A DNA stretch of 64,000 bases from Branchiostoma floridae (lineage: Eukaryota > Chordata > Leptocardii > Amphioxiformes > Branchiostomatidae), in assembly GCF_000003815.2 (NCBI RefSeq), contig NW_023365618.1:1-64000 (forward strand). Reading direction: 5' to 3'. How positions within the stretch are numbered: the first letter of the stretch is position 1; each line of letters starts with the position of its first letter. The notes below the pieces were generated by a model that was not told the origin of the DNA, searched no databases, and saw only the letters and a list, made by a program, of their open reading frames with translations. The position numbers were made by a program, and so were the translations under genes. Below are positions 6,701 through 60,233 of this stretch, piece after piece.

Positions 6701-9700
6701 GTTATAATGTACACTCACATGCACTCAGTCACTCACTACCATATGTTAACTGTCAGTGCCCCCTACCTGCTCCAGTTGCTGCTGCAGGCTGGCCAGCTGG
6801 CTGTTCCTGTCCTCCAGCAGCTGTTTGCTGCTGTCCAGCTCCACCTGCATCTTTCCTTTCAGCTGTTCAGCTTCTGATAGGGACTTGGCCTGGATTTTTA
6901 AAAAAGAGTAAACAATACTATCTATAACTTTTACACTGTGGCACACCATAGCTGAAATACAACATCTAGATATGTTTTCCTTGATAGAGAAAACATATTG
7001 TTTATGTTAGTGTGTTCTTCTTCTTTCTGTCATGGACCAATACTATAGCCATACAGTAGGTCGAGTCTAATGGCATAATATTGTGTGCAAGTAGCTTGAC
7101 AAAAGGCTACAGGAAAATATATCGCACAATCACAAAAATGTTGTATTTCTAGTTTGATAAGTTGCCTTTCTTGGTTGCTTGTCTAAATGAGAATAAAATC
7201 ATGTATGCTACACTATTAGTAAATTGTGCTCTGTGAACCTATACATGTAGCAGTGTACAGTCTTAATGCTTTACATAATATAAAGGCCATTTGAAACTTA
7301 GAAAACAAGATATTCTGTAAGAGAATCTGCAGTTTTGTGTCTGATAATGATATGTACACATCTTTGTACATGCTGTATGCCACTCTTTTGTATTGCATAT
7401 TGAAATGAAATATATATATGTAACATATATTCCAATAGAAAGTTGTGTCCCTACCTTCTGTGCCAGGTCGGTGTCCAGCTGTTTGGCCCTCTGCTGTTCC
7501 GCCCCCAGCCTGTCCTTCATCTCACTCAGACTGACCTCCAGTCTGCTCAGCTGTTCCCGCGCTGTACTCAGCTGGGACACAGTCTATGGGAATATTTGCA
7601 CAAGACATTTCTTCACTTTAAATCTATTGAAAAATTCATGTTCCTCATGCATTTTGACTACATCATACACAAAATGCATCTTAAGCCATATCTTTGTCAC
7701 TCAGAGATAAGAAGCCAAACCTTATGACATATATAGTGAAGTTTCATGTAATACAGAGCTCCAGACTAACTTTTTGGCCTAGGAGCACCCCGCTCCTAAC
7801 TCCTAAAACTTAGGAGCACCAGCAAAAATCTAGGAGCACGACAAAGGGAATAAATGAAGGTCCAGTGAAAATACATTTTTTAAACCTCCTTGATACATGT
7901 AATTGAAGACAGACAGACACATGGCAGACCTTAATGAGGTGTGACCCCCCCTGTTGACCATCCCTGTCAGGGGAAGAAACTGACACCTGGCAGGGATAGC
8001 CTTCCCCTGCAAAGATTCTACTTGGCTGCATGATAAATGATGATTAATTGTGAGAGGTCGCACTGTGCGACTGTGGTCACAGATCTGGTTGCATCAGGGG
8101 AATTCTACTCGCATATGCGACCAACTTGGTCGCAGTCAGGAGCCCTGTAATACTATGTTTCAGCTTAGTACTAGGAGTATTGTCAATGTCACCATGTACA
8201 TTTTGTGACAACAGTTGTTTTTGTTTGCCCGGTAGGGCATGAAGGTACAATGAAGAATATCTATGATTACTATTTTTACATGCCCTGCCAAATGGCCATT
8301 TGCAATAATTCTAGTATTGCTTCAAAATGGTTGCTATTACATTTGTCACTATTTTAAAGGTTTTTATTTTTCCATTTTTGCCAGACTTTCATCAAATCAT
8401 GCGACAGTCAGTGAATAATTTTGCTTCTTCACTACAATGAAGCAGGCCACCATTGACTAGTCAGCAAGACCTCAATAAATGTGAAACAGTCTAGCTCACC
8501 TCCTCAGCCTGACCTTTGACCTGCGCTAACTCCTGTGTTTTCTCCTGTAGCGCTGCCCGTGCCGTGGTCAGGTGACCTTCCAAGTCTGTACGCTGAGCGG
8601 CCTTCGCTGCCTCAGAGGCTGCCAATAGGTCGCCCTGCACAGGGAAAAAGGAGATTCATAAGTCACAATGTCATTTATTTATCAACACAATAAACATAAC
8701 AAACTGTGTGAGAGCATCAAAGTTACACTTGTAGCTCTGTTGCCATTAACAATACAGTACATATGTATTACAAGTTTTTAACATAAGATAATGGATACAA
8801 AATGCGACAGTACTGACAAAAAAATCTTCACGTTACAGGAATAACAGAGCTTTACTTCATAAAAATTGAAGATTAACAATAGCTAATTATCGCTTTGGAA
8901 TTCATTTGCATTCTAATATTTCACTAGCACAACAACGCATGAAAGGAAAATACCCAATGGTATGAGACTAGGAATGAAAATAGAATTTGATGAAAAGAAC
9001 AGCTGAGTTTTGTCCCTCTCTGTTCTGTTTAGAATATTAGTATTATTACTGACCTTGTTCTTGAGTTCTGCCTCCAGTTCTGCAGTTTTCTCCTTGGCTG
9101 CAGTAAGTTTGCTGTTGGTGTCCTGTAGAGTTGTGTCCAGCTTGGTACATCTGTCGTTAGCTGCCTCCACATCACTCTTGGTCTGGGGGAAAACAAAGTT
9201 TGGGAGTAGTGAACACAAACAAACAGTACAGACCCATTTCTGGTAATGAACACTATTCAAACAGTACAGATCTGTGGTACCCATCACTGTCAAAAACATT
9301 ATCACTGTTCTCGGTGCTAAAATATTATCCATAAAGTCTCATAAAGTGCAGATCCATCCCTGGTGCTGAACATTATCCACATATACATGTACAGTGTAGA
9401 CTTGTCCTTGGTGCTGAACACTATCCATACATACAGTACAGAACAGTCCTTAGTGCTGAACACTATCCACAAATACACCAGACCTGGTCTTGGTGTTGTA
9501 CACTATCAACACATACCGTACAAACCTGTCCTTGGTACTGGACACTATCAGAAACAGACAGTACAGACCTGTTCTTGGTGCTGAACATTATCCACACATA
9601 CAGTACAGACCTGTCATTGGTGCTGAACACTATCCACACATACAGTATAGACCTGTCCTTAGTGCTGAACACTATCTGCATATACAGTACAGACCTGTCC

Positions 9701-12700
9701 TTGGTGCTGAACACTATCCTCACATACAGTACAGACCTGTCCTTGGTACTGAACACTACCCACACATGCAGACCAGACCTGTCCTTGGTGCTGAACATTT
9801 TACACACATACAGACCAGACCTGTCCTTGGTGCTGAACACTATCCACACATACAGTATAGACCTGTCCTTAGTGCTGAACACTATCCGCATATACAGTAC
9901 AGACCTGTCCTTGGTGCTGAACACTATCCTCACATACAGTACAGACCTGTCCTTGGTACTGAACACTACCCACACATGCAGACCAGACCTGTCCTTGGTG
10001 CTGACACTATCCACACATACAGTATAGACCTGTCCTTGGTGCTGAACACTATCCGCACATACAGTACAGACCTGTCCTTGGTGCTGAACACTATCCTCAC
10101 ATACAGTACAGACCTGTCCTTGGTACTGAACACTACCCACACATGCAGACCAGACCTGTCCTTGGTACTGAACACTACCCACACATGCAGACCAGACCTG
10201 TCCTTGGTACTGAACACTACCCACACATGCAGACCAGACCTGTCCTTGGTGCTAAACATTTTACACACATACAGTATAGACCTGTCCTTAGTGCTGAACA
10301 CTATCCACACATACAGTACAGACCTGTCCTTAGTGCTGAACACTATCCTCACATACAGTACAGACCTGTCCTTAGTGCTGAACACTATCCACACATACAG
10401 TACAGACCTGTCCTTAGTGCTGAACACTATCCACACATACAGTATAGACCTGTCCTTAGTGCTGAACACTATCCACACATACAGTATAGACCTGTCCTTA
10501 GTGCTGAACACTATCCACACATACAGTATAGACCTGTCCTTGGTGCTAAACATTTTGCACATGTACACATACAGTAGAGACCTGTCCTTGGTGCTGAATG
10601 TCATTTCATTTAGTCAAGAGGATATGCATTTACTTTTTATTCTCATCTGTTGGGCATATTCCATTCTAGTCCAATCCTGGATGATAATTCTAGTTCCTTT
10701 TTAACCTTTTCTATCTATCCCTAACGAGGATGGTTCCATACCATAGGCCCCCCTACCTGTGCCAGTTGGGAGTGCAGGGTGTCCATCTGTGTCTCCAGCT
10801 CCTTCACCTGAGCACCTGCTGCCTCCTGACTCGACTGAAGCTGCTTCTGCAGGGCAGCCTGGAAGATTCAGGAATGCAGCACTTAAGTTACAACTGAAGG
10901 GTTAGTAGCACAACTGCTTAATGAATCAGACATCTACATGTTGACAAACTGAGGGAGAAAATACATATCATTATGTTTGTATGGACACTCACATTTTGCT
11001 GCTGTAGCTGTGTGATTGCAGTAGCCTCACCCTCACCTGCCTGGATCTGTAACAAGTTGTGAGCAAAAACAGAATCTTATCTATAGTATAAATGAATCCA
11101 TTTATCTTTTTTGATATTTGTAGTATACTACTATTATACTAACATATATTATAACTATACTGAAAGCAAGGAAAGTCATCCAATACATAAATTTTCCTTT
11201 AACGACTGCTTCACCCTAAAAATCTATAAAGGCATACATCGATGCGACGTGATAAGCAAGATGAGAATCAAGGTAACCAAGATAACTTTTATTGTGTGTA
11301 GTTTTCCCCCACCTTCTCCATAAGGTCAGTCCTCTCCACCTCCAGTTTACTAATCTGATCCTTCAACTCCTGCATAGCGGTCTCCTGCTGCTGGCTGTGG
11401 GCTTCCCTGGGGGACAAGAGATTCCACGTTATCTATGGTCTTCAATATACAGGTGTAAGTTAGGCTTGCCTGTTATCCTTTCCTTACAAGCTTCTGAACA
11501 TGAAGTGTGCTCATTAGGGTAAGGTACTATTACATGTACATTGTACCGGAACAGAACCTGTCTTTCTCTTTGGACTAGTCCGGAAAAAATGTTTAAAACA
11601 TCAGTGAACTGGATTGTGGACCAATTAGAAAGTGAACAGATCATACAGGCAAGAGTTCATGTGTTTTGCAGCTTATCAAGCCAAGAAAAGAACAAGAGCA
11701 AAGTAGAGGAGAGAGAATTTTTACCAAGTGTCTACAGTCAATTTTGGACTACTTTTACAGAGGCATAAGTACATGACGATAGGATATACCAGTAGAAGTA
11801 GGATACTTTAGTAAACAGATTGCTTTTTTAGCAAAGTGAACCATTGTTTTGAGTACTGCCCATTCACAAGTTTTTACAGACATCGGGTCCAGGTGAAGAT
11901 CTGGAGCCGATCATACCTGTACCTGTATTTCCTGTACCCCCTTGTGCTCATTTATTTGTTACATAAAAAAAGTCTTGCTGAATCGAAAGCTTAGTCTTCC
12001 AACTTACTTGGTCTGCAGATGTCTTGTTTGTTCTTCCAGCTGTGTCTGTCTCTTCCTCACCTGTACCTTCAGCTCATCACCTGCTGACACCTGTTGTGGA
12101 GATTTTCACATCACTCCACATCTTTCTCTACTTTGACAAATTTCTACATCATCATCATTGGTCAATGTGCTTTCACACGACGGGGTTATATCCCCCCTTA
12201 CACAGTTATAGGGTGATAATCCCTTTCAAATAGCTGAATACAAGACAGGGATGCGCCCGGTCTCCCATCCAATAATTTCTACAAATTTCTACACAGTAAA
12301 TGTATCCAGTGATATATATGGTAGTATCCGTATAGTAGCTTGCTTGGTACTAAAACTGGATGGTAGTTGTTTGTAAGTTCAACTCCTCAGAATCAGGAGA
12401 TCTACTTCAGTCATGAACCAAAATGACGGGGGAATACAGACACAGTCACGTTTGGGACCACATTCTTGAGAATTAACTGACACAACTCTGTTATTGCTTT
12501 ATTTTATTCATGACAATAACTGTGTATATTTCAAGTTTGGGACCACATAAATGGTATTCTTTAACATTTGGGACTGCACTGTTTGCAGCAGCACATTAAC
12601 TGCAGTGTGGAATTATAGTACAAGTCAGATTTCCCCTTAAGAAGGTGACAGACAGTCATCAAAATGTCCTGTGTGATTGTATGTTGCGGTTGTGAAGAAA

Positions 12701-15700: not shown

Positions 15701-18700
15701 GATGCAGTGTTCCAGCCAGCCTGAATTTTTTTTTCAGTCCCCTGGATTTTGAATCAAAATCCTGTTGAAGGCACGTGGATCCAAGGCATTCCGGTAGCAT
15801 GCTCTCCCAGAAAAAGTCTAGACCCTCTGAAATGCTATTTCATTATTTCAAGGGGGAGATTTTCCTAGTAAACTCAGCTAGGTTAAATGCATATATTTAC
15901 ATGACGATTTTTGTGGATGGCAATGGGCAAATATTTTTCCATCCCCAAATGCAAAATTTTGTCAAAGAATGGAAGGAAGGACGCTGGCTAGAAACTTTCC
16001 AACACATTGAAAGAAATTGGTCACGGTTCTCAAAAGCACAGTTGAGTACAGGGAGCCAAAAAAATAAGCCAAAAAAATGTACAACTGATTGATGATGTCA
16101 TCATTGAAAACTTGATGTGCTAACATGGTGCCACACACATAGCAATGCTCACATTAGGATTACATCAGAATCACTGTATGAAAGGGGGAGCAGATGTGAA
16201 GGATGAGATATCGATGCATACAAATATATACATTAATTTGTCAGTACCTTTGTTGAAGCTGTGATTCCAAACTCTGAGCCCATGTTGTCTTTTCCTTGAC
16301 TTGGCTCTGCAAAAAAAGAGACAATGTTACATCCATCCAAAAGTACTATCATGTACAGACAAAATATGAGATAAAATAAATATGACATCCTTGAAGTTTC
16401 TAAAACTTTAGCAGTGAGGAGATTATCTTCTAGTTTGTTTGTTTGTTTGATTGTTTGTTTGTTTGTTTATTTGTTTACCTGTAGCGTAGCCACCTGTTCC
16501 TGTAGTCCCATCCTCATCCCAGTCTCCTCATCAACCTTGGACTGGAGCTGGACCTTCTCTCGAGCCTGTGAAAGTCACAAGGAATTGAAAGAAATGTGTT
16601 GACTAAATCAGGAATCAAAGTCTGGAACAAAATGAAGTTCCAAAAGAGCTACCAGAAGGCTTGAATCTAGACTACTCATGTATATAGCAATATCTGCCCC
16701 AAGTGCTATCTACCAGTGGCACTCAAACAATCATGACCAAAGTATGTCAAGAACACGAGATATCAAGACCTTAGAAAGTCCACCTACTACATACTATTAG
16801 ATTCCTTCAACAGCGTTTTGAGTTATGCTGTTCACGCACACACATGCATAAATGACACGAAAATAGTAACCCTGTCGGTAAAAGGATGAATTGATATACA
16901 TGAGGAACCCATCTTGTGCCATCTTTAAAAAGTTAACGCTTAAATCCTTCCAGCACCAGATGTTGCATAGGACGGTGCCCATCTCCATTTCAGTGGCCCT
17001 TGGCTACACAGCTTTGTGTAATCACTACAGCAGGGGGCTAGTCCACAGGTGCACGGTGTGTGCTTATTTTCCATACTATTTCCCGAATACTGACTGCTAA
17101 GCATCTAGAAAGCAGCATGTACCATTTTTAGTATGTCTTTGGTATGACTCTGCCAGGGATTAAACTCATGTCATGATCTACAAAATGCAAGGCGAACACT
17201 CTACCCACTCTGCCATAACACCGTCTTTCTTTAAGTTTAAAATTATGCTTGTGCCATCTTTACAATGATGTTAAGAAATAGAAAGTATCCCCACCATAGC
17301 TGCAGCCTTCTGCTCCAGTGTTTCCTTCTCCCTCCTGGCAGTGATGGAACTCTCGATGGCATCAGCCAACTGTTTCCTTAGAAGGACCACTTCCGACTGG
17401 ACTGTGGAGAAAGGACAGGAGAATCATCCAGTGAATTCCTTTATCTACAAAACCATCTAGCGCAGAGCATGTCACAAATTGTATTCTAACAACTTCCTGA
17501 GACAGGTTAAAACCTTAATGCACTTCAAGTGCCCTTTTATATTTTCAGATTTATGTATTATTGTTTAACTAAGAAAACAGTCTGAACTACACATGTGCAA
17601 GAAAACTAAGAAAGACTTAACACTTTTATATGGTTCTTCTGTCAGACATAAGGACATATGGGACAAAGCTTAGCAATATGAGTGATCGCAGTGATGTCAT
17701 GATAATGCACTGTCAGGAAGAAAGTAATTGAAAGCGAAAGATTAATTTACATAATTATATAAACTAGTAATTTGATCTGCTAATTAAAATATGAGCTAAC
17801 ACAGACGTAGAATACCCCAGATGGAAACAAAAACAGCTATGGCTCGTATAAGCAAGGTACATGTCTACTGAATCTCCACTAGTATGTATCCCTATCAAAA
17901 AAATAAAAACCTACTGAGTGATCTGTTCTCTTCGGACTCTTTCAGCTGCTGTTTGACCACACTGTCCTGAGGGTCTGGTTGGGGCTGGTGGAGAAAAAAA
18001 CAACATGTAAATTCTGCTTTCTTATCCTGTGATTGCATTTGTCTTAGGCCGACGTACAACTTTGATGTCATAGGATTTGCAAGTAGGCTGTTGCTAAACC
18101 AACAACAAGCAAAGACAGTCTTTTTTTCATATATGAACAGGACATCTAAGATAGCTACTGTATGATGATTATTCAATACGAACAAGCCCTTAGCAATCAA
18201 TTTAAACTAACAGCTCTACATTAATCTATATCAATTTTACATTGATTTTGATATTAGTTACCTTGCATGCACTAAGGGATTGCAACCATTTGCCTACAAT
18301 TTAACACCTTTGCCAGTATTGAATCACTTAATTTTTGGCAAAGGCAAACTCTAGACTGTATAAAATAAATTTTGCTGTCTGGGGCTGTAACTGGCCCCTC
18401 CCAGGGATGTTGGGTGGGCTGCTATAAGCAAGATTAAATCAGGCTAGGCAAACTTCTCATCTTAGGTTTACTTGTATTTGTGGCATAATGATTGTGGAAG
18501 TAAAAGGTTACAATTTGTTACATCAAAAAGTCAAAGTCCTTTCCGTGCCTGACGGCGCATATAGGGCGGCGCCCATCTCCGTTTGAGTAGCAATGGGTCA
18601 TACAACTTTGTGCAATCACTACAGCAGGGGGCTAGTCCACTGGTAGTGGTCTGTGTGTTCAACTGCCATACTCTTTCCCAAATGCTGAGTGCTAGGCAGA

Positions 18701-21700
18701 TAAAACAGCATGTACCATTTTTAAAGTCTTTGGTATGACTCGGCCAAGGATCAAACTCACGACCTACAGAATGCAAGGCAAACACGCTACCCACTCGACC
18801 ATTGCACCGGTATAATTGTTACATGTACCTGTTGTTAAGGTGCAGAGTTGTCTGTGTCTCCTGTAGAATGGTACTGTTCATAGTGAGACTGTAGCCTTAC
18901 TCTCACCTCTCAAATAAACGTACCGGTACGTTTATTTTTTTCAGCCTCAAAATCCACCCGGTACATTCTTATTTTAGACGGTACGTTTATTTATTTTTTC
19001 AAATTGGGGCTTTCATTACTAACCTAGGACCCCAAAAATATTGAAATTTTGCGGTTTTCTGCCGATATTTCCGTGGTATTTTGCTCAAAATTTACTATTT
19101 TAGGTGGAGCTGCCTGACGTGACTTATCAGGTCCCCCAGTACGCACAGGGGCGGGTCTCCCATGTGGCAAGCCAAGAGTGTCGGCTTTCCGAGGGAGTGT
19201 TCTTGTATGACAATCTTTTTCGTGGAACTTGTACAAATACAACTACTAGTACAAATATGTTTCCTCCTCGTTCTCAACACTTTTTCCATGTAACTTCCGC
19301 GCCTCCCTCCACTTAACAGCATTAGTATCATTTTTATGGAGGCAAAAAATATATAATCAGACACTTGTCCCTCAGACACTTGGTACGTTCCGATCAGGCC
19401 GTGGGAGGCTGTTGAAAGTTCTTCACGATAGCAGATACTTTTGGTCATTTTATCAAAGTAGAAACTGAACTAACAATATACAATATGAAATATTTTTGAA
19501 AAGTTGGAGCACTGTTGCCATCAGATATGTTTCTGAGCGTTTGTTACTGTCATTTAAGTGCACTCGCCTATGATCCTAGGCTTCCGATTTCATTCTATGT
19601 TTTGGAAAATCCAAATGCCGTCAGCACTCCCTTCGGGTTGACGGCGGCCATTGGGGGAAAAGGAAAAGGGCGGGGGAAAAGCAGAATTACACCGGGGGTA
19701 AAGAGGAATGACGGGGGCACAGATGAAGTACGGCGGGGGTTAAGAGGAAGTCCGGGGGAAAAGGTGAACGGGTAGGGGGAAAAGCAGAAGGAGTTAGGTG
19801 GGGGTGTATTTGGTGTGTATCAGTTTCAAAGCTGGAGTCAAAATTTACAAAGGGCTCAAAGGAACGTGTTTTTTTTCTGTCTTGCGGCAATGCCTGCAGA
19901 GGAATCAGCAATACGATATGAATGTAGGGGGAGGTGTAAAATGTTGAATATTTTCTGTGTTCTTTGACTTCTTTCTCTCACTAAATTTCTAGAATTGATA
20001 ACAAGAGATGCAGAGAGGAATAGGTGCTGATATTTGTAGCTAGCCTTTACACATTAAAAGCTTCACTTGGTCAGTGCACTTCAATCTTCTTCCATCGTGT
20101 ATTTTGAACCATGGGATGTAATAACTACGTGTAGCTCACAGCAAATTGTGAATAGATTACATGTGTACAGGTCAAATGTATTATTCTCTCTCTATATATA
20201 CATATATGACATTTTTCAAGGCCCAATCTAACCAATTACAAAAGTCCAAATATGATAAACATTCTAAGATTATGGCAGTGTGATATAGCCATTCTTTTTG
20301 AAGTATTACAAAAATTTTCCATGATCACTTGCTTCAAGTTCCAAGTAGAAAATGTATGTACAAGTATCATGTAAATTTTCACAAAATTACGAATACTATA
20401 AATCAATCTAATATATTACCTTTTATTACAAAATGGAAAAAAAAGATAATATATCGAACAAGATAACTATGGTTATTCTGTTCATTATATATACAATTAC
20501 ACTATACTGATACGGTACTCAGGCATAAATAAATAAAGAGAACCTCAACCTACTTATCATCTTCTCTTGGACAGAAGTAGCATGGACACAGTTTACATCG
20601 GTATGCCTAAACACCACAAACAAGTGCAAACGAGCAGGCAGACCCAGTTTACATGTCAATTTGGTTTTTTTCCGGGAGGTACTTTTATTCCAGGGGGTAC
20701 TTTTATTAGATTTTGAAGATTTGTCCGGGGGGTACTTTTATTCCAGGGGGTACTTCTATTTGAGAGGTGAGAGTACCTGTTGTTTAGGTGCAGAGTTGTC
20801 AGAGTCTCCTGTAGAATGGTACTGTTCATAGTGAGACTGTAGCCTTACCTGTTGTTTAGGTGCAGAGTTGTCGGTGTCTCCTGTAGAATGGTACTGTTCA
20901 TAGTGAGACTGTAGCCTTACCTGTTGTTTAGGTGCAGAGTTGTCGGTGTCTCCTGTAGAATGGTACTGTTCATAGTGAGACTGTAGCCTTACCTGTTGTT
21001 TAGGTGCATTGTTGTCAGTGTCTCCTGTAGAATGGTACTGTTCATAGTGAGACTGGAGCCTTACCTGTTGTTTAGGTGCAGAGTTGTCGCACTACACGAA
21101 AAAGCGAATATCTGGGTCGAATACTCCTGCATATAAACCCAGATATTCAAAATATGTGGCCGATAACGGGTATATGCCGTCCGCACACTTGGTATAGACG
21201 GACCTGCATATGACCCGGAGATTCACAACTATTAGTGTGCGGGACATATGGAGGCCGATAATGCCTGCATATGTGCCTGGCCATCCCGGTGCATGTCCCG
21301 CCCATGTCCGCCCATCCGACCCAAATTTCCTGCATATGCCTGCCTATTCGGGACATGCACCCTTGTTAGCACCTAATTATCACCTAATTATCTCACCCAG
21401 GTCTCGACTAGAGCACCCTTTGTCATTGAAAGCAGCTTTGTTTTACTACCCTGCCCTACCTAGGATCCCCCCTCCCTGTAGTGTGTTTATTTTGCTTTTA
21501 TTCTTTCTGAATGGTGAATGAAGTTTCTTTATTTTTTCAAAGTATTTCTGGACAGTAGACTATCCTGCCGATTTCCTCCATATGTGCTGGGAATGATGCT
21601 CCTTTTACGTCTTGTGAAGTTCTGCATTCCCGCTATCATACATTCTGTTGTCCACCCGTCTTCTGCACAGACTTTTGTTAGTCAGGAGCACAGCTGCGGC

Positions 21701-24700
21701 AAAATTTCTAAACGTGAACGTGAAGATTTGTGGTAACCATTGATCCATCGCGACACGGGTGGGCAGCCTCCATTGTCCACGGGGCCGAAGCAGAAATCAC
21801 CCGAGGCAACCACCGCCTCCGGCAGCAACTTTTAAGCCAGCCCTACATGGCGACGTGTGACGTAGTCTCAAACCGTCCGCAAAATCACAACCGGGCATGT
21901 CAGTCGTACCCCACCGTACTCTACAGAGCCTGCCCGCGCGCGAGGCTGGATACTAGCTATAAAATTACAGTTGTTTAACACTCCAAGCAGAATCCAATCC
22001 TTCCAGCGTAGGCAGTTCAAATTCCACGCGGCAAGATGTTGTTTAGTTTCGAGGTCGTATCATTCTAAATCCCTCAGTGTTCACTGACGTTGTCTGCCAT
22101 GCATGCAGATATCCAGCTATCGGGATCCGTTGCGTAAAAGCGCAACCTCACAGAAAGAAGTCTAGCTCTGAAATGCCAACTGTAAAATTTGAAAATGTTG
22201 ACGTGTGTTGATTGGTCCATATTTTCAAACACCTACATGCTGTGTGAAATACAATTGGCTAGTTCTGATGAGTATTTGCATACAGACAGACACAATAGGT
22301 CAAACAATACCCACAAGGAACTAGGTGAAAATGTGTTACTGTAAATGTTAATGATTTCATACATCAGTCTGGTAACAAACATATTGTTGTTGCAACAAGC
22401 ATTATCCACAAGGATAAAAACGAATGAAGGCTTCCAATGCGAGCGTGGGTATATCATATACGCCATGTTTTCTTTTGTTTCAAAAGCACAACATTGGTCT
22501 TTAGACTGAAGCGGCCGTTTCATTGATAAGCTTAGGGCGTAAAATGACTACCCCACCATAGAATGGTGGAGAATGTTATCATCAAACGTGTTAGATTTTA
22601 CTTAGAATGTCCATTTCGTGTAGTTCAATCTAGGCAACAAACTGCCGCAGCAAAAAAAAAAACGAATATTAAAATTGAGCGTGGGTAAGCCATGTTTTCT
22701 TTTGTGTCAAAAGTTAAAAAAAAAAAAGTAAAATTAGTTGATTAGCTAAAAACGTAAAACCGAAGCTTAAGAATATAATAATACCAAACGCTGGTATACG
22801 ATGCCCTCAAAGTTATTTTTAGTGTTCGTTCTAGATAACAATTCATTGGAAAACGATGATACGCGCCATTCGTGCGTAGGCCTTTCTTTGTTTTTGTAAA
22901 ACAATGCATTCGTTTATATCAGGCGTTTGTGAGTTTTGTTGACTGAAAATGCCAGACAAGTCAATAAACATCCGCTTGGAGAGTACTTTTATGTAAAGCG
23001 GATGTCCTTTACCAATCTTACTCAAACCTATTCTTATGACAAAGCATCATTACGTCTATCAATTCACACACAAGATGGTCTCTTGTTTGGCATTACTCAA
23101 GACACGAGACGTGAGCAGGGGCCGCATATCCCCATACATGTCTAATTACCGGATGTGCAGGCATAAGCGGTAATATGCAGGACCCGCGCTTGTCATAACA
23201 GGATATGACTGCACATGCCGCGGATACACCAGGTTTCACGGGACATATGCAACCCCAAAAACGACCGGATATTCAAGTTTTCGTGTAGTGTCGGTGTCTC
23301 CTGTAGAATGGTACTGTTCATAGTGAGACTCTAGCCTTACCTGTTGTTTTTGTACTGAGTTGTATGTGTCTCCTGTAGAATGGTACTGTTCATAGTGAGA
23401 CTGGAGCCTTACCTGTTGTTTAGGTGCAGAGTTGTCGGTGTCTCCTGTAGAATGGTACTGTTCATAGTGAGACTGTAGCCTTACCTGTTGTTTAGGTGCA
23501 GAGTTGTCGGTGTCTCCTGTAGAGTGGTACTGTTCATAGTGAGACTGTAGCCTTACCTGTTGTTAAGGTGCAGAGTTGTCAGTGTCTCCTGTAGAATGGT
23601 ACTGTTCATAGTGAGACTGTAGCCTTACCTGTTGTTTAGGTGCAGAGTTGTCGGTGTCTCCTGTAGAATGGTACTGTTCATAGTGAGACTGGAGCCTTAC
23701 CTGTTGTTTAGGTGCAGAGTTGTCGGAGTCTCCTGTAGAATGGTACTGTTCATAGTGAGACTGTAGCCTTACCTGTTGTTTAGGTGCAGAGTTGTCGGTG
23801 TCTCCTGTAGAATGGTACTGTTCATAGTGAGACTGGAGCTCCTCAGGGGAGGGGAGAGCCAGCAAACACATCGGGCAGATAAAACCCTGGGAAAAAAAAT
23901 CCAAAAATATTAGATCTGCATCCTTGATTTTGTCACTGTGACTGTGCACTGGTGAAAGGTAGAAAAAACACCTAAGGCAACTTTGATAGCTTAAATGACA
24001 GCAAAAAGCACAGTCACTGTCTATACAAGTGTTCTCACCAGGATTTTTTCACAGTGTAGGGAGTATCTTAGTGTAGCAAGACCACATGGCAAGAGGCACA
24101 GGCATGAGCATTGTAGATTGTAGAGGGGTCTAGAGGCATCCTCATCTTAGAAATTTTTTTTTTAAATTCATGACCTCCAGAATCACCATTTACTGCATTT
24201 TGACAGACAAATTTCAAATATTTCACGTGTTAGGAAAAAGCCCCCTACAAGCGAACATGTAAGAGCTCAAAACACAGCATAGGGGATACAAAATACTGGC
24301 CCCTTACATTTAGCTCCACTGGTGAGAACTCCATATACTGGTATAAAGAGGGTAGCTACATGTAGGCTGGCCTAAGTATATTCAGGATAAGTTGGAATGC
24401 ACCAGCAAAAAGACAAACATAAGGGAAACAGCAGCAACCATCTCAGCAAAGAGAAACGGCTGGGAGACAAAGGGGCAGGACTTGGAAAACAAGTTAGAAA
24501 ACCAAGTGTTGGAGGAAGCTAGAGCAACGCCCCACATTGACGTCAGCTGAAAAACAAACAAACCAGAACGATGAAGAAATCAGGTTTTAAGAAGAAGGCA
24601 CAATTAAAACACACCACGCAAAACAGTCAAACCTGTACTTAAATGACCATTTTAACTCTCATCATTTTGGTCAACTTTTGGTGTTCCCTTAAGATTATTA

Positions 24701-26562
24701 TTTTTCCCATCATCCAAAGTAAGGTTCCTGTGTTTCTTTCAGGGAATCAGTTCGTAGTCCAGTGGTTAGTGGCCCTGCCTCTGGAACTAGAAGCTGTGAG
24801 TTTGATTCCGGCTGTGTCGCTAACCCGACATGGACACTACCAGATCTAGAAAGTTGCAGTCTTATGACAGAACGTTAAGCCTTGGTCAATTGTTCATTGT
24901 GGTTGGAGCTAGGAGAATTTCCATGGTACAATAAACTTGTAAAATCTGTTACAGTACACATCTGTCTTCTCTGTCACAACCAGTGGAAGAATATAGCTCT
25001 TCAGTGGGCTAAACTGGATAGAATCATATATATCATTTTCTCTTTTTAATGAAATAAAGTCCCTTAAGTGGTCACCATGGACAGGTTTGACTGTATATTC
25101 CAAAGCCACTGCACACCTGTAAAAGCTTCAAACAACCTTAAGAGCATTAAGAGCCACTACCCAAGTCGCCTTTCCTACAGAAGAGACCTACTGAGTCTTG
25201 TGTAGAGATCTTAGACTCCTCTGCATTCCCCTCAGTGTGGTTATGTTCATAATGTGCCTGAAGTTCCTCAGCTGAGGGAAGACTCAGCAAGCACATCGGA
25301 CAGATGAACCCCTGTAATCGATAGTTTTATAATGAGGCCCAATGTTATGGAGGGGACGTAGAAAGCACTTGAATTACTTTCCTACTCTCCCTCGTAAATA
25401 ATTGTAGATCCCTGCATTCCTATAAACACAGGAAACAACTTCAATGGAGATGAAACCTTTCAAAGCAGAAATCAAAAAGTATATAAGAATGTAACAATTT
25501 GTGTTTTCTTTTGCACTACGGCAAATGCTGGAAGAAAACTAAAGTGAAAGTGAAGTGAGATTCTTCAATTTCTTTGGACACTAGCTTTAGCTTACCATTG
25601 ATTGAGATATTACATCATGTCCATTTCGACTGTAAATTACACATACAAATGCTGAGAAACAACACCCAAACTAACGGCAAGTATGTGCTATGCAGACATG
25701 TTGACATTGGCTACAATTAGAGCTACGATACTGTTTTACGACCAAGCTGGAAAATAAACAATAGATCAATTATTAAGTGGGCAAGAATGCACGCAAAAAG
25801 CAATGCTTCGCTAAATAAATTGAGGATAAAAGATATATGGATCTTAAGAATGGTGATGTCATAGATGTAGCATCTGTCTTTTACTGTAAAAGGAAAAATG
25901 TTCGCAAGGTAGGATTTTATTTCTTGTAAATTTATGTAAGAGAGAAATTTGCGGTGACTGTAAGTTCATGGTTTATACAATGGGGAAGGCAAGCAGAATA
26001 CTGAGAAGTCCCAAGTTTCCAGTGCAGTATTCAAAATCGTGAACTAAAAACCACTGCAAACATTTTCCCTTTTACAGTAAGATCACTCTACTAGTAACTA
26101 ATCCCCCTGGAGTCACATGGTACATTCCACCAGAGGCCGACTTCCTGATACAGTGATAGTAAAAACAGATCCGCCATTTGTGACAAGCAAACTTGACTTT
26201 AAACCTCACCTAAACGCTTACAGCACAAAATAAAGATGTAGAATTGAGGAATACTTGTCTATTGAGTGATAGCAACAAGAAGATCGTTTTGAACAAAACG
26301 TGTTAGAAAGGAAATCACATGATAATGTTTACATACCGAGCATTCGTCTTCGGGGGAGGGGCCGGGCACAGGAGGGGCACTGCTCTCTCGCGTCTGTTAA
26401 AACAAACGACAACAACTTTAACACTCATCAAATCATTCTTCAAAGTCTGTAATCCTTAAGAGAATTGCTTGAAGTGTCTTAAAGACGTGTTTAAGGCTTG
26501 CTTACTTGTTCCTCCGAATCTTTTCGCCTCGCCGCCCGAAGTCGATTCAGGAGCTGCGCCAT
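631..26562 (-). CDS. EEA1: Early endosome antigen 1 (EEA1), 5' and central part, 28 exons, C-terminus off window
   Basis: EEA1 tethers early endosomes by binding Rab5 through an N-terminal C2H2 finger and PI3P through a C-terminal FYVE domain, joined by a long coiled coil. Exons in coding order: 26506-26562, 26337-26393, 25192-25311, 23773-23886, 17915-17984, 17295-17401, 16479-16565, 16248-16306, 15498-15638, 14749-14817, 14121-14214, 13421-13558, 12723-12809, 12008-12090, 11313-11406, 10993-11046, 10757-10858, 9054-9182, 8500-8634, 7455-7583, 6767-6889, 6128-6226, 5334-5423, 4867-4950, 3094-3156, 1927-2022, 1401-1490, 631-762. All have AG/GT borders and join in frame (2703 nt, 901 codons). 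Identity rests on the finger, a block starting RPGADDVLVLRREL (human RPGIEDVAVLKKEL), IQAGEGE, and a LLAASEAAKAAQRTDLEGHL block. Most of the rest is Gln/Glu/Leu-rich coiled coil. The FYVE exons are missing at the left. Small exons may have been overlooked, especially near the gap at 4175-4274. Confidence 0.9.
1401..1490 (-). CDS. EEA1: EEA1 exon 27, coiled coil
   Basis: Thirty codons beginning AKATQEERASQLSTQLQSVE, CCCCAG acceptor, GTACAT donor, phase 0-0. Confidence 0.8.
1927..2022 (-). CDS. EEA1: EEA1 exon 26, coiled coil
   Basis: Thirty-two codons beginning EVHGQLHQAESNLQALRDRE, TTTCAG acceptor, GTAAGG donor, phase 0-0. Confidence 0.8.
2118..2550. mobile_element. hAT-like MITE copy 1 with 8-bp target duplication
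   Basis: A 433-bp element with terminal inverted repeats TAGGGCTGGGTACCGGTACA and its complement. It is flanked by a perfect direct repeat CCCTGAGG at 2110-2117 and 2551-2558. The 8-bp duplication and TIR form fit the hAT superfamily. It has no coding capacity. A sister copy lies at 13671-14100 in the opposite orientation. Confidence 0.85.
2860..2965. repeat. Decayed SINE fragment
   Basis: A short stretch around 'cccaagggcacaacgtcaga' matches the body of the SINE at 5121-5302 but the tRNA-like head is eroded. Confidence 0.4.
3094..3156 (-). CDS. EEA1: EEA1 exon 25, coiled coil
   Basis: Twenty-one codons beginning KANEDTQSVAAELATSKEAM, TTTAG acceptor, GTAAGT donor, phase 0-0. The 1.7 kb upstream of it includes an assembly gap, so an exon between this and 4867 could be missing. 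Confidence 0.75.
4175..4274. other. Assembly gap (100 N)
   Basis: Exactly 100 N, a round number that suggests a placeholder length rather than a measured one. It sits in an EEA1 intron. Confidence 0.98.
4380..4445. repeat. Perfect AT-rich palindrome
   Basis: Two perfectly complementary 32-bp arms (4380-4411 and 4414-4445) are separated by only two bases. It would extrude as a cruciform or be a tiny foldback element. It lies about 100 bp from the assembly gap. Confidence 0.9.
4867..4950 (-). CDS. EEA1: EEA1 exon 24, coiled coil
   Basis: Twenty-eight codons beginning NEKQQVERQQVQIQNYESQV, CCCCAG acceptor, GTGTGT donor, phase 0-0. Confidence 0.78.
5121..5302 (-). repeat. tRNA-derived SINE, family 1
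   Basis: On the minus strand a tRNA-like head carries box A (GGCGTAACTGGTAGAGCG) and box B (GGTCCTGAGTTCGATCC). A body with 'ttgtgcccttggaaaggcac' and 'aaaatgggtacctgacttcg' follows. The body resembles the Deu-domain of deuterostome SINEs; that assignment is from memory of the family. Related fragments occur near 2860 and 47180. Confidence 0.8.
5334..5423 (-). CDS. EEA1: EEA1 exon 23, coiled coil
   Basis: Thirty codons beginning MSATDKVVEKLKEQLEEKML, TTTCAG acceptor, GTGGGG donor, phase 0-0. A SINE lies about 30 bp past its donor. Confidence 0.8.
6128..6226 (-). CDS. EEA1: EEA1 exon 22, coiled coil
   Basis: Thirty-three codons beginning VKSEGSAEKTRLQEQLSLAQ, TTTTAG acceptor, GTACAG donor, phase 0-0. 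Confidence 0.8.
6767..6889 (-). CDS. EEA1: EEA1 exon 21, coiled coil
   Basis: Forty-one codons beginning AKSLSEAEQLKGKMQVELDS, ATCCAG acceptor, GTAGGG donor, phase 0-0. Confidence 0.8.
7455..7583 (-). CDS. EEA1: EEA1 exon 20, coiled coil
   Basis: Forty-three codons beginning TVSQLSTAREQLSRLEVSLS, CATAG acceptor, GTAGGG donor, phase 0-0. Confidence 0.8.
7755..8146. mobile_element. hAT-like MITE, second family
   Basis: Imperfect terminal inverted repeats, AGAGCTCCAGACT at the left and the complement of AGGGCTCCTGACT at the right, enclose about 390 bp. The flanks share GTAATAC as a direct repeat. No coding capacity is seen. Superfamily is inferred from TIR style, since the target duplication is only seven clear bases. 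Confidence 0.6.
8500..8634 (-). CDS. EEA1: EEA1 exon 19, conserved coiled-coil block
   Basis: It begins GDLLAASEAAKAAQRTDLEG and continues HLTTARAALQEKTQEL, closely matching human ELLLSAEAAKTAQRADLQNH and LDTAQNALQDKQQEL. Phase 0-0, donor GTGAGC. Confidence 0.9.
9054..9182 (-). CDS. EEA1: EEA1 exon 18, coiled coil
   Basis: Forty-three codons beginning TKSDVEAANDRCTKLDTTLQ, CCCCAG acceptor, GTCAGT donor, phase 0-0. Confidence 0.82.
9340..10600. repeat. 42-bp minisatellite, about 30 copies, in EEA1 intron
   Basis: Tandem copies of a 42-bp unit containing ACATACAGTACAGACCTGTC and CTTGGTGCTGAACACTATCC. Copies become degenerate to the left of about 9340. Because 42 is a multiple of three, reading frames of 404 codons (plus) and 253 codons (minus) stay open, but they are by-products of the repeat. 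Confidence 0.95.
10757..10858 (-). CDS. EEA1: EEA1 exon 17, coiled coil
   Basis: Thirty-four codons beginning AALQKQLQSSQEAAGAQVKE, phase 0-0. The intron that follows contains the 42-bp minisatellite. Confidence 0.8.
10993..11046 (-). CDS. EEA1: EEA1 exon 16, IQAGEGE block
   Basis: Eighteen codons, IQAGEGEATAITQLQQQN, match the human IQAGEGETAVLNQLQEKN segment with no gap. Acceptor TTACAG, donor GTGAGT. Confidence 0.88.
11313..11406 (-). CDS. EEA1: EEA1 exon 15, coiled coil
   Basis: It completes the shared Lys codon and encodes EAHSQQQETAMQELKDQISK through TDLMEK, phase 2-0. Confidence 0.8.
11530..11935. repeat. Degenerate copy of the 2118 hAT-like MITE family
   Basis: Motifs shared with the intact copies, such as 'aaacagattg', 'aagtgaaccattg' and 'gtccaggt', occur in the same order, with an eroded 'gtaccgg' end at the left. 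No clear target duplication survives. Confidence 0.45.
12008..12090 (-). CDS. EEA1: EEA1 exon 14, coiled coil
   Basis: Twenty-seven codons beginning VSAGDELKVQVRKRQTQLEE and two extra bases, GTAAGT donor, phase 0-2. Confidence 0.8.
12723..12809 (-). CDS. EEA1: EEA1 exon 13, coiled coil
   Basis: Twenty-nine codons beginning WEDQCHQKESDVENLQKQ, CCCCAG acceptor, GTGAGC donor, phase 0-0. Confidence 0.8.
13051..13264. mobile_element. TA-flanked MITE (CAGTCAAACCTGT family), copy 1
   Basis: A 214-bp element with TIRs CAGTCAAACCTGTA and its near complement, bounded by TA on each side. This is the pattern of Tc1/mariner-type non-autonomous elements. A longer copy is at 24624-25093. Confidence 0.75.
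13421..13558 (-). CDS. EEA1: EEA1 exon 12, coiled coil
   Basis: Forty-six codons beginning TENAMKEKETTCTKLDQQ, CTTAG acceptor, GTACAA donor, phase 0-0. Confidence 0.8.
13671..14100. mobile_element. hAT-like MITE copy 2 with 8-bp target duplication
   Basis: A 430-bp element similar to the reverse complement of 2118-2550, flanked by a perfect direct repeat AATCATTA at 13663-13670 and 14101-14108. The right end is 20 bp from the donor side of EEA1 exon 14121-14214. Confidence 0.85.
14121..14214 (-). CDS. EEA1: EEA1 exon 11, coiled coil
   Basis: Thirty-one codons beginning LQQTSGEVSQLSEQLQQLQG, TTGCAG acceptor, GTCAGA donor, phase 2 in and 0 out. A hAT MITE ends only 20 bp from its donor. Confidence 0.8.
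14749..14817 (-). CDS. EEA1: EEA1 exon 10, coiled coil
   Basis: It encodes LEKSVNDIRSELDKAPKSED plus LE and a split Arg. It parallels human ISQLRSELAKGPQE. Phase 2-2, donor GTTTGT. Confidence 0.82.
15050..15245 (-). repeat. Truncated SINE, family 2
   Basis: It shares 'cagtgcccatctctgttt' and 'agggggctagtccactggta' with the copies at 16958 and 18540 but lacks the tRNA-like head. Confidence 0.55.
15498..15638 (-). CDS. EEA1: EEA1 exon 9, most diagnostic coiled-coil block
   Basis: Starting from the shared Arg codon it reads RPGADDVLVLRRELVNAQQL and continues MDKLTLEQEEE. It lines up without gaps with human EEA1 RPGIEDVAVLKKELVQVQTL and MDNMTLEREEE. This is the best single piece of evidence for the gene's identity. 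Donor is GTAAGT. Confidence 0.92.
16248..16306 (-). CDS. EEA1: EEA1 exon 8, coiled coil
   Basis: It encodes SQVKEKTTWAQSLESQLQQ and then splits an Arg codon (phase 2) with the next exon. Acceptor TTTGCAG, donor GTACTG. Confidence 0.8.
16479..16565 (-). CDS. EEA1: EEA1 exon 7, coiled coil
   Basis: It encodes 29 residues beginning AREKVQLQSKVDEETG, with CACAG acceptor and GTAAAC donor, phase 0-0. Confidence 0.8.
16958..17223 (-). repeat. tRNA-derived SINE, family 2, copy
   Basis: Minus-strand element with a decayed tRNA-like head near 17150-17223 (box A-like GGCAGAGTGGGTAGAG). Its body contains 'gcagggggctagtccac'. It matches 18540-18810 over its length. Confidence 0.65.
17295..17401 (-). CDS. 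EEA1: EEA1 exon 6, coiled coil
   Basis: It encodes QSEVVLLRKQLADAIES and on to KAAAM, like the human VTLLRQEVQDL segment that follows the finger. Enters in phase 1, leaves in phase 0. Confidence 0.8.
17915..17984 (-). CDS. EEA1: EEA1 exon 5, start of coiled coil
   Basis: It encodes PQPDPQDSVVKQQLKESEEN and three more residues. Acceptor is CACCAG, donor is GTAGGT, phase 0 in and phase 1 out. It joins directly to the next exon in frame. Confidence 0.75.
18540..18810 (-). repeat. tRNA-derived SINE, family 2, best copy
   Basis: On the minus strand box A (TGGTCGAGTGGGTAGCG, 18785-18801) and box B (GGTCGTGAGTTTGATCC, 18748-18764) have the spacing of a tRNA-derived pol III promoter. A body shared with two other copies in EEA1 introns follows. 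Confidence 0.75.
18900..20773. mobile_element. 1.87-kb non-autonomous DNA transposon with TA target duplication
   Basis: Terminal inverted repeats start CTCTCACCTCTCAAATA on both ends and continue as direct-repeat motifs of the type GGTAC(T/G)TTTATT. TA at 18898-18899 is repeated at 20774-20775, and removing the element restores a perfect 72-bp repeat unit junction. The TA duplication points to Tc1/mariner-like transposition, though the TIR is not one I recognise. No transposase frame is visible. A G-rich tract lies inside. Confidence 0.8.
19650..19805 (+). repeat. G-rich purine tract of short repeats
   Basis: Seven or more imperfect copies of a unit like CGGGGGAAAAGCAGAA occur in a row inside the TA-flanked transposon. 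Regular runs of five G give quadruplex potential. Confidence 0.7.
21090..23290. mobile_element. 2.2-kb CACTA-like DNA transposon inserted in a minisatellite unit
   Basis: Both ends begin CACTACACGAAA in inverted orientation, followed by 'gaatatc'. TCG at 21087-21089 is duplicated at 23291-23293, and excising the element restores one 72-bp unit. A CACTA terminus with a 3-bp duplication is typical of the EnSpm/CACTA superfamily. Subterminal regions hold many short 'catatg' and 'gcatatgcc' motifs in both orientations, the usual transposase-binding layout. No transposase frame is visible, so it is probably non-autonomous. Confidence 0.82.
23773..23886 (-). CDS. EEA1: EEA1 zinc-finger exon B (tandem duplicate of exon A)
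   Basis: Thirty-eight residues beginning GFICPMCLLALPSPEELQ and continuing SHYEQYH repeat the C-x2-C-x12-H-x4-H finger with the same Rab5-contact residues. A polypyrimidine tract and CCCAG acceptor precede it. The first donor (CAACAG|GTAAGG) closes it at phase 0, so it is symmetric like exon A. The frame stays open past this donor through three further 72-bp copies of the exon's 3' half, each with its own donor, before a TAA near 23563. The exon end is therefore ambiguous. Confidence 0.85.
24624..25093. mobile_element. TA-type MITE (CAGTCAAACCTGT family), copy 2, carrying a SINE
   Basis: TIRs CAGTCAAACCTGTACTTAA and complement enclose 470 bp. The right flank is TA; the left is AA, so one copy of the duplication has mutated. 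A tRNA-derived SINE sits inside it. Confidence 0.7.
24750..24900 (+). repeat. tRNA-derived SINE, family 3
   Basis: Plus-strand box A-like TAGTCCAGTGGTTAGTGG and box B-like GCTGTGAGTTTGATTCC are spaced as in a tRNA gene. The head is followed by a non-tRNA body. It lies within the MITE at 24624-25093, so it inserted later. Confidence 0.65.
25192..25311 (-). CDS. EEA1: EEA1 zinc-finger exon A (Rab5-binding C2H2 finger)
   Basis: Forty residues beginning GFICPMCLLSLPSAEELQ and continuing AHYEHNH give C-x2-C-x12-H-x4-H, the spacing of the EEA1 N-terminal finger. In human EEA1 this finger binds Rab5 through Phe41, Ile42, Pro44, Met47 and Tyr60. Phe, Ile, Pro and Tyr are kept here and Met is replaced by Leu. 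The acceptor is ACAG|GGG and the donor TCA|GTAGGT, phase 0-0, so it can be skipped or combined with exon B without a frameshift. Confidence 0.85.
26337..26393 (-). CDS. EEA1: EEA1 exon 2, Pro/Ser-rich linker
   Basis: It encodes TRESSAPPVPGPSPEDECS between an ACAG acceptor and a GTATGT donor, phase 0 at both ends. It is a short acidic and proline-rich linker before the zinc finger. Confidence 0.75.
26506..26562 (-). CDS. EEA1: EEA1 exon 1 with start codon
   Basis: It encodes MAQLLNRLRAARRKDSEEQ and ends in a phase-0 donor (CAA|GTAAGC). The ATG is in a fair context (AACATGG) and is the only one that leads in frame into the finger exons. The basic N-terminal segment resembles the short Arg-rich start of vertebrate EEA1. 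Confidence 0.8.
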
Positions 26563-33500: not shown

Positions 33501-36500
33501 CTTCGTACCAGCTGTGTTACCACTGAACATTCAAGTAAAGAAAAATGAATTCTTTTAGTGTACCCTCCGTATACACATGACGGCGGGTGCCAAAATAAGT
33601 CAAGATATGAACTTTATTGCACGACATTTGTACATATGGTACAATGTATGGCAACGACTAATACACAAAGTACAAAATAGGTCTATACAATATGACTTAA
33701 CATCCTAATTAACATAACAAAAAGGGCTAATACAAGTCTTTGATATAGTGTTACAATCGAGTTGGGCTAATCATGAGTTTCATTATTCATTCTAATAGCA
33801 AAGCAGTCTTTGATATATTTGCCTATCTTTGCATTATGGGAGTTGTGGCACGTAAATATATAAGCAAATCTGTCTGTAGCATCGAGTCTCTTGAAATCTG
33901 CTGTTACTGGATTCTAGAAATGTGAATAGCTTATTACGTAAAATAGCGTCACTAGAACATTCCATTAAAAAGTGAAATTCATCTTCAATATACAAATATA
34001 TATACGTGTAGGTGTTACCCGGTGTCCTTTTCTATAGAAGGTGACTGTGGTGAAGCTTTATATTTCGTCTCAAGCGTTACACTTAAGGTTCAATCAATGA
34101 CGAAGTGCTGAAGTGCTGAAACAAGCCTAGGGTGTGCCTCATTTGAAATAGAAAACTCATGCATCAGTGACGAGATTCATGTATATCTTTTTAATATGTG
34201 ACATTATTTTCTGCATATAATATCATACGTTTGTGGCGTATCTGGTTTAGTGTTGGGCTCGGTACCTAGAAGTGAATGTCGGACACTTCGGCACATGGAC
34301 ACTTCGGCCCCCTGGCAATCAGGACATTTCGGCCCCACGCCGAGGACACTTCGGCCCCAAGCCGAGGACACTTCGGCCCCGGGTCCGGTCCACGATAGTT
34401 ATCTAACACGTAGCCCGAGCTGAATACATAACGTATAATTTTAGGAAGTATGATTTTACTTGTACAGTATATTACATAGTGTTCTCCTGTCTACTCGAGA
34501 AAATCGCTGGTAAGTGTGTTTGCTATGTTTCAATACTTATTTATTTGTTTCAAGACTTAAGAGCGAATGTCTGTAAGGGTCAAACAATGGTGGCACCGGT
34601 CAGAAAATAGATTTGGCTCCTTTTTTGCACAGTGATAGTACTTGGTACACAACCCCTCAAAATAGATTTCTTTCTTCTCAGAACCCCTCGTTGCCATGGC
34701 AACAGGCCAAAGAAGTTTGGGGGCCATTTTGCCGGATTTGGGCATGTCAAAAACATGAAAATTGGCCAGCTTAAGGGCACTATCACTGAACAATGCTTTA
34801 ACTAAACAACAAAGGCAGAATATGCTGATCAGAGCAATGCCTAAACTTGTATGAAATAGCAGTAAAGTTAATCTCCTGTAAATTCTAAGGCCCTGGGCAG
34901 CCTGAATACAATACACTGTTTTCAGGTTGTAAAGAATATGAAATTTTGCCCAACTTCAAAGCACTGAAAGTCCATAAGTATAAAATATTTTCGCTTGCAA
35001 TTTACTACAAATAATAACCTACTATAGGGCTATTAGATGAATGCTAGCAAAGTTTGGGTTCTTGTTTTGTTGCTATACAATCGTCCGTCGAAGTGGGTCA
35101 AATTTCATGATTTTGATAATATGTCATTTTATGCTCTCTTTAAACAATCATAAGTCCCATACCAAAGTTACTCTGCAATTAAAATTCACATGGATTATAA
35201 ACCAATGTATTGTCTATCAAATGCATGTTTGTAAAGTTCGGGTTCTTCTTTCGTTGCTACGTAATTGTCCTTTAAAGTGGGTCATTTTTTTATGACTTTG
35301 ATAAAATACATTATTTTGCATCATCTTCGAACAATCATAACTCACAAGCCAAAATTGTTCTGTAACTAGAATTTACCTGAAATGTAAACCAAGATATTGT
35401 TTCTCAAGGTCATGCTTGTAAAGTTTGGGTTCTTGTTTTGTTGCTAAGCAATTGTCCATTAAATTGGGTCAATTTCATGATTTTGATGATATATCATTTT
35501 GTGCTCTCTTTGAACTGTCATAAGTTGCAAAGTAAATTTGTTCTGAAATTGAAATTAACAAGGAATACAAACGGATATATTGTAGCTATCAAATGCTTGT
35601 TTGGACAGTTCGAGTTCGGGTATTCTAACAGTGAATGTACATGTCCCTGAAAGTAGGTCGTATTTCACTGACTTTTCCACAAATCATGTTCTTGACAACA
35701 GTGATACACAGTCTTTGTTTTTATAGAACCGATGCAGTAATGTGCTATCACCATGGAAAAAAAACATTTGTAGGTATTATATTCTACACAAAGTCATATT
35801 TATGTTTAATGTCAGATTAATCCACTCTGAACTTTCAAACATTCTGCTAGTTTTAAAGCTAAGCATGACGTATGACTACAGTCTTGAACATGTTTGCATC
35901 CCCACAATATGGCGACTTATTTCTACATTGGAACAAATATCTTAAATCTCTGTGCATCTTTCTTTCACAGTAATGTGAAAAACATGTGCATTTTCAACTT
36001 CTGCTAACACACTCATTTTCAGCAAGGACATGAACTTCGGTATTCTTGAATTTTTGCCACAAATATGTACTTCCAAAGGCAATCAATTATTGGTGATCGC
36101 AAATCAGATTTAGGAATGTTAGTTCGTACAAGTTCAATTTCCTTGCCAAATCGCAAGCTTATATGTGTCTCCCAAAAAGGAAGATGTAGATAAACGTCAT
36201 TCGTTGCTTCATATTGATCTTTACTGTTGATAGATTCGAACAAAGTTAGGTCAAGATGCTGACCTTCATCATCCTCTGCCGTATTTTGACGTTAGCCTGT
36301 CAAGCTAATTTCCACACAGACAGACTAGCAGACAAACATCAATCGCCGCCAGGAGTTGGCATTTCAGGCAAACTTCAAGAGCAACCTACTAGGTTCGTTC
36401 TTGCCCTTGCTTAAAACGAGTATGGTCCATTGAATAGCAGAAACTGAAAAACGCATGTTTTCACATAAATGCTACCGTGCAAAAGAAAGATGCACAGAGA

Positions 36501-60070: not shown

Positions 60071-60077
60071 ATCCAAA

Positions 60078-60233
60078 CAAACCGAGATCAGTGAAGGCAA
60101 AATGCCGCGTGACTGACTTTGACCTTTGACAAACCGAGGTCAGTGAAGTCAGAATGCCGCGTGACTGACTTTGACCTTTGACAAACCGAGGTCAGTGAAG
60201 TCAGAATGTCGCGTGACTGACTTTGACCTTTGA
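60078..60233. repeat. 52-bp tandem repeat, three copies
   Basis: Three consecutive units containing CAAACCGAGGTCAGTGAAG and GTGACTGACTTTGACCTTTG at 60078, 60130 and 60182, nearly identical. Confidence 0.95.

Follow-up and report, generated by a model that had tools for sequence, protein, structure and literature searches.

An in-frame 72-bp minisatellite across a predicted splice donor of a probable lancelet EEA1 gene

The minus strand of the 64-kb stretch of Branchiostoma floridae DNA analysed here (the window) carries a minisatellite whose 72-bp unit joins the last 66 nt of a zinc-finger exon, exon B, to the 6 nt of intron that follow. The unit, with a length divisible by three, reads as 24 codons. 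The array holds 13 units with 13 donors, its reading frame is open as far as donor 3, a stop codon lies in unit 4, and two insertions, each with its target duplication, interrupt it. According to the accessible text of PMC3087553, amphioxus minisatellites that lie across exon-intron boundaries, as in Adh3 and the globin genes, are known as mirages. We consider it likely that the array is a young mirage, which arose when a segment across the donor boundary of exon B was duplicated in tandem and which turns over by unequal exchange or slippage, with donor 1 as the main donor and the array near-neutral.

Structure of the array and its two insertions

Tandem Repeats Finder (TRF) reported two 72-bp arrays, at 23289-23839 (7.7 copies, score 1004) and at 20774-21088 (4.4 copies, score 588). 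Within 18700-24100, the minus strand holds CAACAGGT at 13 sites, which correspond to 13 CAACAG/GT donors (the slash marks the predicted junction); the units were located by this motif, which 13/13 contain. When the two insertions and one copy of each target duplication were removed and the flanks joined by script, the donors followed each other at exactly 72 bp in 12/12 spacings. The layout, read along the minus strand, is as follows.

23767..23838, minus strand: unit 1, 66 nt of exon plus GTAAGG; donor 1 after 23773
23335..23766, minus strand: units 2-7, uninterrupted, with a TAA within unit 4; donors 2-7 after 23701, 23629, 23557, 23485, 23413 and 23341
23291..23334, minus strand: 5' part of unit 8, which transposon 2 interrupts
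21090..23290, no strand assigned: transposon 2, 2201 bp, terminal inverted repeats beginning CACTACACGAAAA
21059..21089, minus strand: 3' part of unit 8; donor 8 after 21065
20843..21058, minus strand: units 9-11; donors 9-11 after 20993, 20921 and 20849
20774..20842, minus strand: unit 12, its intronic end split by transposon 1 so that the last 3 nt lie at 18895-18897; donor 12 after 20777
18900..20773, no strand assigned: transposon 1, 1874 bp, terminal inverted repeats beginning CTCTCACCTCTCAAATA
18823..18894, minus strand: unit 13, a single unit at the distal border, containing a TAA; donor 13 after 18829

The repeat is confined to this place: over the 64-kb window the minus strand has 11 copies of CAACAGGTAAGG and the plus strand 0, and 17/17 rows of a blastn comparison of the unit with the window fell inside the array. 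These results bear out the preliminary description, which had reported a 72-bp in-frame minisatellite derived from the 3' half of the finger exon and the start of its intron, and which had correctly named QQVRLQSHY as the peptide at the unit junction, as translation of the unit confirms. Its statement that every unit carries GTAAGG holds for 11/13 units, in which the donor 9-mer CAG/GTAAGG is identical, and fails for the other two. Donor 12 reads CAG/GTACTC and is changed at the insertion point of transposon 1, while donor 13, a weaker site that borders the remainder of the intron, reads CAG/GTACAT.

The two transposon-like insertions, which the preliminary description had left out, account for 4075 bp of the roughly 5 kb that it had given as the span of the array. 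The 26-nt arms of transposon 2 are 85% complementary, and a TCG target duplication flanks it at 21087-21089 and 23291-23293. CACTA/EnSpm elements are recognised by CACTA ends and a 3-bp target duplication; transposon 2 ends in CACTACACG and has the TCG duplication, and we take it to be CACTA/EnSpm-like. Transposon 1 has 27-nt arms that are 93% complementary and a TA target duplication (18898-18899 and 20774-20775), and is presumably Tc1/mariner-like, an assignment made from its target site only. Five open reading frames (three from transposon 1, two from transposon 2) matched no Pfam family at its cut-off, though one of the five weakly resembled a family of unknown function (E = 0.093), and no transposase was recognised in either element. 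Transposon 2, with no such match in the two frames tried, would be at most a non-autonomous copy. Within the window, the end pattern of transposon 1 (up to 3 mismatches) was found only at its own two ends; that of transposon 2 (up to 2 mismatches) was found at four sites, comprising its own two ends and two poorer ones, with 2.1 expected by chance. The elements also serve as an internal marker of relative age: as they interrupt units 8 and 12, the array would already have been long when they landed.

One end of transposon 2 drew our attention for another reason. At 21059-21091 an AG at the transposon end follows a pyrimidine-rich stretch and precedes 27 nt in frame and donor 8, a possible in-frame microexon judging from its sequence. 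As a case of exonisation we set it aside: the acceptor, the AG before 21091, is not strong (rank 173 of 3827).

Tandem arrays are often mis-sized in assemblies, and the window does contain runs of N (at about 27.19-28.09 and 30.88-31.17 kb), which could suggest that the array is an assembly artefact. However, its units fall into 10 distinct types, there is no N within it, and the target duplications match at both insertions. We therefore regard an artefact as extremely unlikely.

The host gene

The exons to which the array belongs were predicted as follows.

26506..26562, minus strand: predicted first coding exon, MAQLLNRLRAARRKDSEEQ
26337..26393, minus strand: predicted second coding exon, TRESSAPPVPGPSPEDECS
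25192..25311, minus strand: finger exon A, 120 nt, phase 0/0, upstream of exon B, without array
23773..23886, minus strand: finger exon B, 114 nt, 38 codons, phase 0/0, GFICPMC...PKQQ, ending CAACAG/GTAAGG; the final 66 nt form the exonic portion of unit 1
17915..17984, minus strand: predicted next exon past the array, acceptor phase 0

The 38-residue translation of exon B has the crystallised human EEA1 finger (3mjh_B) as its best PDB match, with E = 6.5e-6 against 0.021 for the next of the 11 matches listed, whereas the Pfam C2H2 models match it only weakly and below threshold (16.6 bits, cut-off 27). The PDB match supports the earlier assignment of the gene to EEA1, and the host is probably the lancelet EEA1 gene. 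A lancelet origin is also in keeping with the type of array and with the sequence style of the window, in which TACATGTA is over-represented. The N-terminal C2H2 finger of EEA1 is a Rab5-binding site, as given in the accessible part of PMC7036122.

Candidate exons of coiled-coil-like composition follow further along the minus strand. By an ad hoc composition score, the part of the window below 17.5 kb has 25 coiled-coil-like stretches on the minus strand and 8 on the plus strand (45 and 18 over the whole window); 22 of the 25, scored on composition in the same ad hoc manner, were kept as exon candidates. Four candidates were compared with Pfam and gave sub-threshold matches only, with none to the EEA1 family; one candidate resembles human EEA1. 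The C-terminal FYVE domain, if present, probably lies further along the minus strand, likely past the left edge of the window. A search of the array translation also yielded PF17291 (M60-like_N), at 25.1 bits in one piece (cut-off 23) and 21.7 in another, and no single stretch passed; we take this match to be a spurious sum of short matches within the repeat.

Exon A resembles exon B over approximately its first 75 nt in an alignment judged by eye. When a doubled 72-bp unit was aligned to exon A, its score was reached by 4/500 shuffles, which we read as the likeness between the two exons; no array was seen in exon A. The two finger exons stand in tandem, and inclusion of A and B, of A alone or of B alone would each keep the frame. 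Both splice sites of exon A are weak (acceptor rank 787 of 3827, donor 2.97 bits), and therefore alternative or mutually exclusive use of A and B is possible.

Reading frame and donor choice

As expected from a unit in which 66 of 72 nt are copied coding sequence, the frame through the array is open: the exon-derived part brings no stop in the copied exon sequence, and the intronic GTAAGG reads VR. A unit length divisible by three would in itself be a one-in-three event. Stops occur in 2/12 intronic units, where a TAA derived from AAA lies two codons 5' of the donor in units 4 and 13. We then joined predicted exons 1, 2, A and B to the next exon through each of donors 1-7. Donors 1, 2 and 3 gave stop-free products of 139, 163 and 187 residues, while with each of donors 4-7 the product came to a stop after residue 185; donors 8-13 are located past this TAA as well. 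Among donors 1-7, only the first three keep the protein open (+0, +24 and +48 residues), because the TAA precedes the donor of unit 4. The preliminary description, in which the frame was open through four units, was thus too generous, and its proposal that alternative donors could add 24-residue steps stands as a potential up to donor 3 and falls beyond it, at the TAA of unit 4. Against its further suggestion, that length polymorphism might alter the EEA1 protein or its splicing, stand the published mirages, which vary in length while Adh3 data and globin RT-PCR were reported to suggest regular splicing.

Splice sites were scored on consensus tables. On this scale donor 1 reaches 11.44 bits, a value attained by 14/4015 GT sites on the minus strand, 11 of which are in the array; the acceptor of exon B ranks third among 3827 AG sites. 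Since eleven donors are identical, the 9-mer gives the first donor no edge. Of two equal strong donors, splice competition often favours the intron-proximal one, and this preference, if applied to the array, would yield an exon containing the stop. Use of donors 4-7 would extend exon B to 330-546 nt, and exon definition disfavours exons of this size. The array offers a natural test of donor choice by the spliceosome, with 11 identical 9-nt sites, of which seven follow each other at 72-nt spacing, and a stop that marks the fourth.

Our model suggests that a tandem duplication across the donor boundary of finger exon B founded the minisatellite, that unequal exchange or slippage expanded it to 13 units, and that it was subsequently interrupted by two non-autonomous DNA transposons. 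The strong acceptor of exon B, through exon definition, would normally lead to the choice of donor 1, giving the 114-nt exon and a normal finger, and the other units would be removed as part of the intron. If donor 2 or 3 were used now and then, 24 or 48 residues would be placed between the finger and the coiled coil, presumably a rare and harmless event, while splicing at donor 4 or beyond would bring the TAA into the exon and lead to decay of the mRNA (NMD). Under this model the array itself is probably near-neutral.

The same features could be read as a working length dial, in which donors 1-3 are used at real frequency, EEA1 isoforms differ by 0, 24 or 48 residues and unit number varies the outcome between individuals. 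A unit that is a multiple of three, a frame open to donor 3, donors that are identical and strong, and an excess of synonymous changes among the units (see below) would all suit such a function. However, the units owe their open frame to the exon they were copied from, unit 4 contains a TAA, the synonymous excess weakens when repeated changes are counted once, and regular splicing is reported for the Adh3 and globin mirages in the accessible text of PMC3087553. We judge this reading to be unlikely. A more elaborate form of it, in which the balance between use of donors 1-3 (+0/24/48) and decay depends on how many units there are and on where the first TAA lies, with unequal exchange feeding variants into the coding unit, would make the array a heritable, fast-mutating dial of EEA1, and strikes us as quite improbable. 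If it were true, the tether would lengthen by 0, 24 or 48 residues after the Rab5-binding finger.

Alternatively, the extra donors could titrate U1 or add the TAA of unit 4 to the transcript, with a loss of EEA1 mRNA proportional to the number of units. It is plausible that U1 would occupy many strong donors, and the early stop predicted with donors 4-7 is what such poisoned splicing would produce; against this, the long form of exon B that these donors define is disfavoured under exon definition. We hold this possibility to be quite remote, and retain the model in which donor 1 predominates and the array is near-neutral.

Divergence among units and comparison with other mirages

Comparison of the exon unit with each of the 12 intronic ones shows differences at 0-6 of 66 nt (mean 3.4%); it is identical to unit 3. 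Over the same 66 nt the 13 units represent 10 distinct types and differ on average by 4.5%, or by 3.4% without unit 7. Neighbouring units are no closer to each other than to the others (3.3 vs 2.9 differences), and several variants recur in non-adjacent units: C at position 3 in units 1, 3, 7 and 9, T at position 40 in units 2 and 12, and T at position 58, which creates the TAA, in units 4 and 13. Such low divergence fits recent turnover, either of a young array or of one that has been homogenised together with the exon. The identity of the exon unit to unit 3 and the scattered variants would equally be seen if the intronic units served as a reservoir from which gene conversion passes variants to and from the coding unit of exon B. 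Recent expansion explains variant sharing just as well, and we consider such a reservoir very unlikely.

Judged singly against the unit consensus, the differences comprise 12 synonymous, 8 non-synonymous and 2 stop changes, an excess of synonymous ones (12/22 vs 20.7% expected, p = 0.0005). When each distinct change was counted once, in a tally made by hand, the figure was 6/14 (p = 0.05), and leaving out the changes private to unit 7, again by hand, gave 4/9 (p = 0.095). The excess could hint at coding constraint, and is strong only if shared changes are counted repeatedly.

In anatomy the array agrees with the amphioxus mirages. Each of its 13 units spans an exon-intron boundary, here a predicted one, and the units carry splice signals (CAACAG/GT in 13/13, GTAAGG in 11/13); our comparison is of a single haplotype. 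The accessible text of PMC3087553 names B. floridae and B. lanceolatum as carriers of mirages, places them in two globin genes, BflGb6 and BflGb9, and relates those of Adh3 from Canestro et al. 2002. Published mirages vary in length, and BflGb6 has 6 and 3 units in two haplotypes (PMC3087553), compared with 13 in the EEA1 array. The 72-bp EEA1 unit compares with 150-160 bp in BflGb6, 157 bp in BflGb9 and 10-72 bp in Adh3, as far as that text gives them. Adh3 data and RT-PCR of the globin genes suggested regular splicing, and the splice signals of mirage repeats were considered potential cryptic sites (PMC3087553); the accessible text of PMC3902484 agrees on regular splicing for Adh and troponin C.

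PMC3902484 also describes, in its accessible text, 60-bp and 108-bp arrays that abut or overlap splice sites in PGBD5; depending on which of two assembly versions is consulted, their copy numbers are 2 or 7 and 3 or 6, respectively. Part of the 108-bp array is taken as an exon by the JGI gene model, without EST support. Both PGBD5 units are divisible by three, as is the 72-bp unit of EEA1. The PGBD5 repeats are described there as imperfect and with no mention of a transposon insertion, whereas the EEA1 array holds two. Unlike the Adh3 and globin mirages, the EEA1 array keeps the frame and contains two transposons. Its unusual features are a unit that preserves the frame, a host finger of the Rab5-binding type and the pair of transposons within it. 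EEA1 is absent from the genes named for mirages in the accessible text of PMC3087553 and PMC3902484, and the array is not named in the titles or abstract openings of the literature searched on mirage-like repeats, EEA1 and donor choice, a body from which subscription papers were mostly absent. The array would add an endosome-tether gene to the lancelet genes that bear splice-boundary minisatellites. With intron gain by duplicated proto-splice sites (Rogers; Gao and Lynch; both as related in the accessible text of PMC3087553) it has in common the duplication of a splice-site-carrying segment; in contrast to that process, the array lengthens an existing intron, and no new intron is shown.

Other repeats were observed in the window. 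A 42-bp array at 9357-10598 (approximately 29 copies, unit divisible by three) fills much of a predicted EEA1 intron, and 27 CAGGT motifs lie on the EEA1 gene strand at 9300-10640. We considered it as a second mirage, but the unit matched the flanking donor and acceptor no better than chance (shuffles scored as high in 252/500 and 96/500 cases), and because it fails to match the flanking junctions we do not count it as one. Two open frames of 132 codons, at 34557-34955 and 37516-37914, are near-identical by eye, run in opposite orientation about 2.6 kb apart, and resemble the two arms of a large mobile element with inverted repeats. At 60077-60233, outside the predicted EEA1 exons, there is a 52-bp tandem array of 3 copies with 96% matches. 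Finally, TACATGTA occurs 13 times in the window, against 1.6 expected from base composition.
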